51,304 nucleotides of DNA from Clostridiaceae bacterium (GTDB lineage: Bacteria > Bacillota > Clostridia > Acetivibrionales > DUMB01), in contig DULF01000207.1 of NCBI GenBank assembly GCA_012840535.1, positions 1-51,304 of the forward strand, in the 5' to 3' direction. Below the pieces are notes generated by a model. It searched no databases, had not been told where the DNA came from, and worked only from the letters and a program-made list of their open reading frames with translations. Below, piece by piece: positions 3,224 to 50,280 of the stretch (positions are counted from its first letter, which is position 1; every line of letters starts with the position of its first letter). A program made the translations under genes and the position numbers.

Positions 3224-3533
3224 GATTGGGGTAATAGGAGACAAGGATAGTGTCCTTGGTTTTAAAGCAGTCGGGCTGTCGGTATTTCCGGTTACCCGGT
3301 CCCAGGAAGCCGAAGAAATTCTGCATAAGCTCGCAGAAGAACAATATGCTGTGATATATATTACAGAGCAAATTGCAAAGGATATTATTTCAAGCATAGA
3401 TTCATACAAGGACAAAAGGTTTCCTGCAATAATTCCCATTCCGGGAAATCAGGGAAGCCTGGGAATAGGTATGGAATGCATTAAGAAGTCTGTTGAACGT
3501 GCAGTAGGAGCAGATATATTATTCAAGGAATAG
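3216..3533 (+). CDS. ntpF: V-type ATP synthase subunit F
   Basis: MYKIGVIGDKDSVLGFKAVGLSVFPV is a characteristic subunit F N-terminus; overlaps the ntpC end. Confidence 0.93.
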   Translation: MYKIGVIGDKDSVLGFKAVGLSVFPVTRSQEAEEILHKLAEEQYAVIYITEQIAKDIISSIDSYKDKRFPAIIPIPGNQGSLGIGMECIKKSVERAVGADILFKE

Positions 3534-3539
3534 GGCAAT

Positions 3540-3680
3540 TAGGTAAGAGGTGAGAGGTTGGAGGTTAGAAATAGGAGATAGAAGTCAAATCTTACAACAA
3601 CCCCTAACCTCTGACCTATAACCTTTATCCCGTTACCGTAAGGTAATACCTCTAACCTATTACCTCTAACCTATAACCTG
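3540..3680. repeat. Intergenic inverted heptamer repeat (AGGTTAG-like units, then CTAACCT-like units)
   Basis: 3541-3568 reads AGGTAAG|AGGTGAG|AGGTTGG|AGGTTAG; 3604-3624 reads CTAACCT|CTGACCT|ATAACCT; further CTAACCT/ATTACCT/CTAACCT/ATAACCT units to about 3678; internal TTACC-GTAA-GGTAA mini-hairpin. Confidence 0.85.
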
Positions 3681-3721
3681 CACTTATTGTGTGTAATAAA
3701 CTGCGAAAGAAGGGATGATAT

Positions 3722-5491: not shown

Positions 5492-6868
5492 ATGCTTAAG
5501 GAGTACAGAACTATAAACGAAGTTGCCGGTCCTTTGATGCTCGTCAGACAAGTTGAAGGAGTCAAATATGGAGAACTGGGCGAGATAGAGCTTAAAAACG
5601 GCGAAACACGCAGGTGCAGGGTGCTGGAGGTAGATGGAGATAATGCCCTTGTACAGCTGTTTGAAAGCTCGGCAGGAATAAACATTGCCGAGAGTAAAGT
5701 GAGATTTTTGGGCAGGGGAATAGAACTTCCCGTATCTATTGACATGCTTGGAAGAGTGTTTGACGGATTAGGAAGGCCAATTGACGGAGGGCCGAATATT
5801 ATACCGGATGCCAGACTTGATATAAACGGTGTTCCTATTAACCCTGCAGCAAGGAATTATCCGTCCGAATTTATTCAAACAGGGATATCTGCCATAGATG
5901 GATTGAATACGCTTGTAAGAGGACAGAAGCTTCCGATATTTTCAGGCTCTGGTTTGCCCCATGCCCAGCTTGCAGCGCAGATAGCAAGGCAGGCAAAAGT
6001 GCTTGGCACGGACAGCAAATTTGCGGTTGTGTTCGCTGCAATAGGTATTACTTTTGAAGAGGCAAACTTCTTTATAACGGACTTTAAAAGGACAGGAGCT
6101 ATTGACCGTGCTGTATTATTCATGAACCTGGCTAATGACCCGGCAATTGAGCGTATATCCACTCCTCGTATGGCTCTTACCGCGGCTGAGTACCTTGCCT
6201 TTGAAAAGGATATGCATGTACTGGTTATCCTTACGGATATAACAAATTATGCCGAGGCTCTGCGCGAGGTATCGGCAGCAAGAAAGGAAGTGCCCGGAAG
6301 AAGGGGATATCCAGGCTACCTTTATACGGACCTTGCGACTATATATGAAAGGGCAGGAAGGAAAAAGGATAAGGAAGGCAGCATAACGCTCATACCTATC
6401 CTTACAATGCCGGAAGATGACAAAACTCATCCTATTCCCGACCTTACCGGTTATATAACCGAGGGACAGATAATTTTAAGCAGGGAACTTCACAGGAAAG
6501 GAATAACTCCGCCTATAGACGTTCTTCCATCACTTTCGCGTCTGAAGGATAAAGGTATAGGAGCAGGTAAAACGAGGGAAGACCACGCAGATACAATGAA
6601 CCAGCTGTTTGCTGCATATGCAAGAGGAAAAGAAGCAAAAGAACTGGCGGTCATATTAGGAGAGGCTGCACTGACTGATACTGACAAACTGTATGCAAAA
6701 TTTGCTGATGAATTTGAAAAAGAATACGTTTCACAGGGATTTGACGAAGACAGGCCTATAGAGAAGACCCTGGAAATAGGGTGGAAGCTTCTTTCAATCT
6801 TGCCGGTAAGCGAACTTAAGCGTATAAGGGATGAATATATAGATAAGTATTATCCGTGTAATAGGTAA
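5492..6868 (+). CDS. ntpB: V-type ATP synthase subunit B
   Basis: [18 protein letters not shown]...[18 protein letters not shown]; 458 aa. Confidence 0.97.
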
Positions 6869-7060
6869 GAGGTGAGAGGTACGAGGTAAGAGGTTAGGAT
6901 TGCTTTTAGGCAATTCAGAGGTTGGATGTTGGAGGTTAGAAGTGACTTACAGCAAGCTTTGGGTAAGGGGTAATAGTGGAAGTTCCTTAACCGAATATAA
7001 AGAGAATTTATAGAAACCTCTAACCCATAACCTATAACCCGTTATCATAAGGTAAGATGT
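6862..7060. repeat. Second copy of the inverted heptamer repeat; overlaps the ntpB stop codon
   Basis: TAGGTAAGAGGTGAGAGGT (6862-6880) is identical to 3540-3558; later AACCTCTAACCCATAACCTATAACCCGTTATCATAAGGTAAG resembles 3604-3650. Confidence 0.85.
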
Positions 7061-7146
7061 AGGGGATTGATTTATCTATCCTGATAAAGCAGAAGATAAA
7101 AATCGGAGAACAGAAGTGAGAGAAAAGATTAAGGAGCGATAAAATT

Positions 7147-14617: not shown

Positions 14618-14752
14618 AAAACTTAATAATGCTGAATGCTCTTTTTTAAAGAAGAGCTACGGAGGAACCATCTTTTTCGAGGGGTTAATCCATATTGAAA
14701 AATATGGTAGGGTATTCCTATTTACCGAACCCGGCAGCTAACTCCGGAAGCA
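14618..14752 (+). ncRNA. c-di-AMP riboswitch (ydaO/yuaA)
   Basis: GCTACGGAGGAACC ... GAGGGGTTAATCC ... GGTAGGG ... ACCGAACCCGGCAGCTAACTCCGGAAGC matches the ydaO consensus; upstream of a cell-wall hydrolase. Confidence 0.92.
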
Positions 14753-14768
14753 TAAATAGGAGGATAAA

Positions 14769-41640: not shown

Positions 41641-41790
41641 CTATTTATAGTTTATCAGATTGTCAAGAATTTGTCAATGTATGAGACTTTAATTCTCAAA
41701 ATTTATCTTGACAAATGGTATCTCTACTATTATTTTAGTATATAATAGATATTACGTTACATTGTTTTGAAAAGTTTAATAATTCAAAGG

Positions 41791-42094
41791 CAATGACGGA
41801 GAAGAGTACATACGGAAGTTTTTCAAGCGAGTTAGAGTTTGGTGGGAGTCTAATAAAACGACCGTATGGAAGGCAGCTCCTGAGTCTCTCCTTGAGAACT
41901 GGAAATTGCAAAAGTTATAGGGAGCGGCTGAACAAGCTTTTTGCAATTTCTAAAGTAGAGGAAGACGTTATCTCGCGTTATAGAGAAGCAGTATGTTTGT
42001 ACTGTGGCAAGAGAGGGCGCTTAAAATGCGCCAAATAGGGTGGTACCGCGGATTACTCCTTCGTCCCTTTGTGGATTGAAGGAGTTTATTTTTT
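41791..42094 (+). ncRNA. T-box riboswitch leader
   Basis: AATGACGGAGAAGAGTA start, AGCGAG...GGTGGGAG stem I distal motifs, AGGGTGGTACCGCGG antiterminator (42037-42051), terminator ACTCCTTC...GAAGGAGT + T tract. Confidence 0.96.
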
Positions 42095-49947: not shown

Positions 49948-50280
49948 ATGGAAGACAAAACATTTGAATTGATGACGAAAATGTACAGTGAGTTTACTGA
50001 ATTTAAGAAAGACATGTATGATTTTAAGAAGGACATGTATGAATTTAAGAAGGACATGTATGAATTCAAACAGGAGATGTATGAATTTAAGAAAGAAACG
50101 AAGAATGATATAATAAGGTTGGAAAATAAGCTGGATTCAACTTCCAAAGTTTTGTTCGACGGATACAAACAAACAGTTGAAAGACTTAGTGCCCTTGAGC
50201 AAAAAGTGGATGCTATTTCTGCAAAAGTTGAAAAACAGGATATTGAAATTAAAGTTATCAAAGGCGGAAAAACTATTTAA
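49948..50280 (+). CDS. Hypothetical heptad-repeat coiled-coil protein
   Basis: ATG after AAAGGAG; internal FKKDMYDFKKDMYEFKKDMYEFKQEMYEFKKE heptads. Confidence 0.75.
   Translation: MEDKTFELMTKMYSEFTEFKKDMYDFKKDMYEFKKDMYEFKQEMYEFKKETKNDIIRLENKLDSTSKVLFDGYKQTVERLSALEQKVDAISAKVEKQDIEIKVIKGGKTI
49999..50097 (+). repeat. 21-bp in-frame tandem repeat (about 4.7 copies)
   Basis: GAATTTAAGAARGACATGTAT units at 49999, 50020, 50041, 50062 and partial at 50083, encoding EFKKDMY. Confidence 0.93.

Follow-up and report, generated by a model that had tools for sequence, protein, structure and literature searches.

Tandem heptamer arrays in intergenic DNA are a described and widespread class of repeat (PMC4692102, PMC4679880, PMC6344855). 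In Xanthomonas and Nostoc, the sense strand of the repeats (GGGAATC and GGGGA(T/C)T, respectively) is found 0-50 bp from a stop codon or overlapping the stop, the antisense strand is found just upstream of the next ORF, and the formation of quadruplexes has been proposed (PMC4692102). Convergent close pairs have also been reported in Xanthomonas, with 70-75 cases per genome (PMC4692102). Other tandem intergenic heptamers include the cyanobacterial STRR heptamers and the long simple sequence repeats of prokaryotes (reviewed in PMC4679880, PMC4692102), and according to the authors of the SPADE survey, heptamers outnumber all other intergenic tandem repeats across a wide range of prokaryotes and have no known function (PMC6344855). 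The arrays described here are a new, G-quadruplex-free variant of the Xanthomonas-type class, as the same positional rules apply to the GGGAATC repeats. A sequence-only reading of this DNA could name no repeat family that would explain the heptamers. That no known class explains them is not supported, since the class is known and, in Xanthomonas, inverted pairs that converge near stop codons have been described (PMC4692102). A text search of the accessible literature for the sequence of the ARGTNAG family found no description of it.

The window (the whole 51,304-nucleotide stretch of Clostridiaceae DNA that was analysed) contains a V-ATPase (ntp) operon with two heptamer elements, the features of which are given in Table 1. 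The arrangement in the ntpF-ntpA gap, where four purine heptamers face heptamers of the reverse-complement type, was confirmed by direct reading and by Tandem Repeats Finder, which calls a period of 7 at both arms of the element. The strict 7-nt phase and the non-coding position reported from the sequence alone are likewise supported. Because the two arrays form a convergent pair, the RNA can fold into a hairpin; the fold of 3530-3720 has an energy of -53.6 kcal/mol (z -3.1), and none of 200 dinucleotide shuffles was equally stable. An intercistronic hairpin with an inner mini-hairpin is consequently possible, as had been proposed, but the partner originally assigned to the purine arm (3604-3617) is an alternative to that in the minimum-energy fold, where the outer pyrimidine array is the arm's main partner and the mini-hairpin forms inside. 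The RNA at ntpF-ntpA probably forms an imperfect hairpin of little regulatory consequence, and any effect on mRNA stability or cistron coupling would be modest at most. No Rfam 15 match above the gathering score was found at the arrays, the only matches in the window being a c-di-AMP riboswitch (14620-14767) and a T-box leader (41784-42071), both above the gathering score. No intrinsic terminator (a GC-rich hairpin with a T-run) was called in 3534-3721 or 6863-7146. Elsewhere in the window, a 21-nt tandem repeat at 49998-50093 (4.6 copies, 86% matches) is possibly an in-frame protein repeat.

Table 1. Features of the two heptamer elements in the ntp operon (window coordinates).
Feature	Position	Strand	Remarks
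ntpF-ntpA gap	3534..3721	+	188 nt
Purine-strand heptamer array	3541..3568	+	4 units, AGGTAAG AGGTGAG AGGTTGG AGGTTAG; starts 7 nt past the ntpF stop codon
Inner pyrimidine-strand (inverted) heptamer array	3604..3624	-	3 units, CTAACCT CTGACCT ATAACCT
Mini-hairpin TTACC-GTAA-GGTAA	3633..3646	+	GNRA-type loop; sits between the two pyrimidine arrays
Outer pyrimidine-strand array	3645..3679	-	5 units, AATACCT CTAACCT ATTACCT CTAACCT ATAACCT; main partner of 3541-3568
Element 2 purine-strand array	6863..6897	+	5 units; first unit supplies the ntpB stop TAA (6866-6868)
Element 2 further purine units	6919..6939	+	AGGTTGG ATGTTGG AGGTTAG
Element 2 spacer module of the dispersed element	6986..7020	-	common to C43, C155, C216 and C61
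Element 2 pyrimidine-strand array	7013..7040	-	4 units, followed by GTTATCATAAGGTAAG hairpin

The second composite (6863-7046) fills the ntpB-ntpD gap and has a fold z of -2.5. The C-terminus of ntpB is of normal length despite the location of its stop codon inside the first heptamer. This element shares 68% identity across 259 bp with C43:31008-31266 and has the same order of parts (hairpin, purine units, spacer of ~40 nt, pyrimidine units) as the composites C43, C155, C216 and C61. The presence of both the arrays and the spacer in all five composites indicates that at least these have been copied as a unit. The ntpF-ntpA element has only its hairpin half in common with these composites (3599-3648 is 82% identical to C43; 3605-3664 is 83% identical to C155).

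The sequence-only reading would have been refuted, in its own terms, by the absence of further copies in the genome together with a lack of conservation of the 7-nt periodicity; as further copies are present, this outcome did not arise. A search of the source genome assembly (G000; 3.19 Mb, 240 contigs) with the three-unit pattern AGGTNNGAGGTNNGAGGT, allowing at most one mismatch, returned 88 matches (39 + 49) vs 2 (0 + 2) for the reversed control, indicating that the pattern is not due to chance. Pattern and similarity searches place arrays at ~25 sites, mostly intergenic, and of 48 arrays none falls within a called ORF (ORFs called by length). The unit is RGGTNAG-like, with AGGTAAG (58 of 227 units), AGGTAAT (21), AGGTTAG (19) and GGGTAAG (17) as prominent forms. 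Several arrays contain higher-order repeats in multiples of 7, and periods of 28 or 49 nt can be read directly in C43 and C215. Furthermore, the array at C171:8035-8271 (L089:7637-7868) is built from unrelated RGAGRCC heptamers (AGAGGCC/AGAGACC/GGAGGCC) with periods of 14, 28, 35 and 49, suggesting that what stays constant is the 7-nt period and not the sequence. A stretch resembling the C171 array is found at C111:17375-17503. At C215:1868-2496 (L096), an ORF of ~135 aa is preceded by purine arrays (two runs with 11 units in all) and followed by pyrimidine arrays, which resembles an element that carries cargo.

To evaluate placement, the sense array closest behind each gene was taken and scored as anchored if it starts within -20 to +10 nt of the stop codon. 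By this measure, G000 has 13/22 sense (purine) arrays anchored, genome G070 10/12, G147 7/8 and the other genomes 5/7, while the numbers expected if arrays were placed uniformly within these gaps are 2.9, 2.2, 0.6 and 1.6, respectively (p 0.0004 or less each, for ORFs called by length, loci picked for holding arrays, and arrays that are not independent within a genome). The corresponding values for pyrimidine (antisense) arrays are 1/12, 0/9, 0/6 and 1/7. Because an array filled with stops ends any frame that enters it, the test was repeated using only stops located wholly before the array, which gave 16/41 sense vs 0/34 antisense arrays (Fisher p 2e-5; G183 was left out of this pool after its lack of anchoring had been seen). 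No anchoring at stop codons was detected in G183 (0/15 in the first test; 0/19 and 0/20 in the repeat). The G183 arrays (L258-L286) have 3-5 units and belong to a dispersed element whose flanks are shared: GCTGCTAG or CTATTAG precedes the array, and AAACGGTTTTT-like sequence follows it. The pattern matches ~190 times in the 2.4 Mb of this genome. Where arrays of opposite orientation are neighbours, 9 pairs converge and 0 diverge. The anchoring of the purine strand at stop codons, the convergence of opposite arrays and the pairing of a stop codon with GAGG in the commonest units are new here.

Read in the other phase, the commonest units consist of a stop codon joined to GAGG (TAAGAGG, TGAGAGG, TAGAGGT). 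With such units, growth of an array at a gene end is harmless in every frame, and a similar argument was made by MacGregor for the TAACTGA repeats (PMC4679880). Stop-bearing units in G000 number 126/153 on the sense vs 25/56 on the antisense strand. In G070 they are equally frequent on both strands (63/67 and 31/33), and the GGGAATC units of Xanthomonas occupy the same positions yet are free of stops; stop content is therefore not the whole reason for the placement. G000 thus gives a hint of selection for stops within the units, G070 gives none, and the Xanthomonas placement does not require it; such selection is consequently not established.

The orthologous gaps were compared in 20 relatives, among which the F-A gap is 17-209 nt, the B-D gap is 15-224 nt and A and B are closely coupled in every case (-8 to 2 nt). 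This array is absent from the F-A gaps of all 20, and the larger gaps hold other sequence, indicating a lineage-specific insertion rather than a conserved riboregulator. In the orthologous ntpF-ntpA gaps, whose comparison the initial reading had put forward, the hairpin is not conserved, and an ancestral role in controlling the V-ATPase operon is therefore disfavoured. One relative (L223, from G030) has a short array of its own that lies directly at the stop codon of ntpB (TGAGAGGTAGGAAGTGGGAAGTGAGAGGTTGG). More broadly, triple arrays of ARGTDAG are present in 31 of 289 genomes of the taxonomic class with a patchy distribution (193 in G183, 100 in G070, 48 in G147 and 46 in G000) and are nearly absent for the reversed control; G106, a congener of G070, has 0. 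In the ntp operons of the relatives L214 and L220, hairpins of the type GGGGACATTCCTTAA...GGTGTGTCCCC occur in the B-D or F-A gap, suggesting that these two gaps repeatedly accommodate lineage-specific intergenic repeats. Exact AGGTAAGx3 arrays were also observed in four IMG/VR contigs classed as viral (L319-L322), with the short array in L322 standing alone in non-coding-looking DNA. There is no sign of a virus origin, given only these four contigs.

The ntpF-ntpA array is probably one site of an RGGTNAG family that has grown by slippage, has been copied in part and is tolerated at gene ends, where it forms an imperfect hairpin. Arrays would grow by 7-nt slippage or unequal exchange, would occasionally be duplicated, inverted or copied, and may survive where they are least harmful, directly behind a gene, where they are possibly favoured. 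Survival would be aided by stop-bearing units (TAA, TGA or TAG beside GAGG) that soon close an entering frame, and opposite arrays that face each other nearby can pair into an imperfect intercistronic RNA hairpin. Tolerated, slippage-grown repeats are the best-supported account because stops are not established as selected, no quadruplex is predicted and the placement is that of the Xanthomonas repeats. An unlikely alternative is that the composites are a functional intercistronic RNA element bracketing ntpA-ntpB, in which the hairpins adjust the stability or processing of the A-B mRNA, as each complex requires three copies of the ntpA and ntpB products and one of those of F and D. The exact location of the elements at F|A and B|D, the z-scores of both folds and the constant coupling of A to B agree with such a role; however, the F-A gaps of the 20 relatives contain no such array, F-A and B-D gaps of 15-224 nt hold unrelated sequence or none, and the same family is found at ~23 other, unrelated gene borders. 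It is similarly improbable that the arrays are the arms of a non-autonomous mobile element (MITE- or REP-like) with a transposase encoded elsewhere. The arms of the composites are convergent, element 2 and its four relatives have arms, spacer and hairpin in common, the genome contains three matches to Y1 transposase (PF01797), and the G183 arrays have shared flanks. Most sites, however, share only heptamers, with ragged ends and identities of 65-78%; no target-site duplication was seen by eye in the five related composites of this single genome, and the partial resemblance of the ntpF-ntpA element, limited to its hairpin half, also speaks against a mobile unit.

Rho prefers C-rich, G-poor RNA, and the pyrimidine strand could be imagined as a Rho loading site, with the array keeping antisense transcription out of the gene that precedes it. 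The (CTNACCT)n composition is C-rich and almost free of G, with a CC every 7 nt, the anchoring at gene ends is strand-specific, and the genome encodes a Rho RNA-binding domain. This proposal is nevertheless speculative and very unlikely to be correct, as the second arm in tandem operons puts the C-rich strand into the sense RNA before ntpA and cyanobacteria that have heptamer arrays lack Rho (PMC13289151). Lastly, the period and positions of the arrays equal those of the GGGAATC repeats (PMC4692102), which would fit a G-quadruplex-forming repeat of the kind suggested for Xanthomonas and Nostoc. Such a structure is highly implausible here, as the units contain only GG doublets with 5-nt loops and ViennaRNA with quadruplexes enabled predicts none, giving 0.0 kcal/mol for three purine arrays vs -8.4 for 4x GGGAATC. 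The arrays are therefore classed as a variant of the heptamer class and not as a quadruplex repeat.

The occurrence of stop anchoring, strand asymmetry and convergence with units for which no quadruplex is predicted argues against the mechanism proposed for Xanthomonas. It is conceivable, if rather doubtful, that a sequence-independent positional grammar is common to Xanthomonas and several families of the class with unrelated units, in which a repeat of 7-nt period has a G-rich sense strand starting at the stop codon and a convergent partner before the next gene. If so, one general process at gene 3' ends, such as repeat growth coupled to the termination of transcription or translation, or alternatively selection for end-of-gene hairpins, would account for these repeats rather than G-quadruplexes. 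In many prokaryotes, no tandem repeat between genes is described as commoner than heptamer arrays. These findings yield testable predictions on the origin and role of such arrays.

Comparison with the TAACTGA repeats of Beggiatoaceae, some Cyanobacteria and Bacteroidetes (PMC4679880) reveals similarities, as these are also 7-nt, intergenic and patchy, with stops in all three forward frames and some sets that overlap the upstream stop. In contrast to the arrays described here, the TAACTGA repeats are mostly located just upstream of start codons, have a near-invariant unit and almost lack inverted sets (PMC4679880). Identity with the TAACTGA repeats was rejected on the basis of unit and position. 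The arrays differ from those of Xanthomonas and Nostoc in sequence, lineage, the presence of GG rather than GGG, and the lack of a predicted quadruplex; their units are also more variable, most contain a stop codon, and they occur in composites that have a spacer in common and hairpins with a GTAA loop. Like the Xanthomonas and Nostoc heptamers, they are 7-nt tandem units found at many intergenic sites per genome, with sense placement near the upstream stop (in G000, G070, G147 and others, but not G183) and convergent pairs. Arrays of four units are the commonest in Xanthomonas and Nostoc, and likewise in G000 when arrays with at least 3 units are considered.
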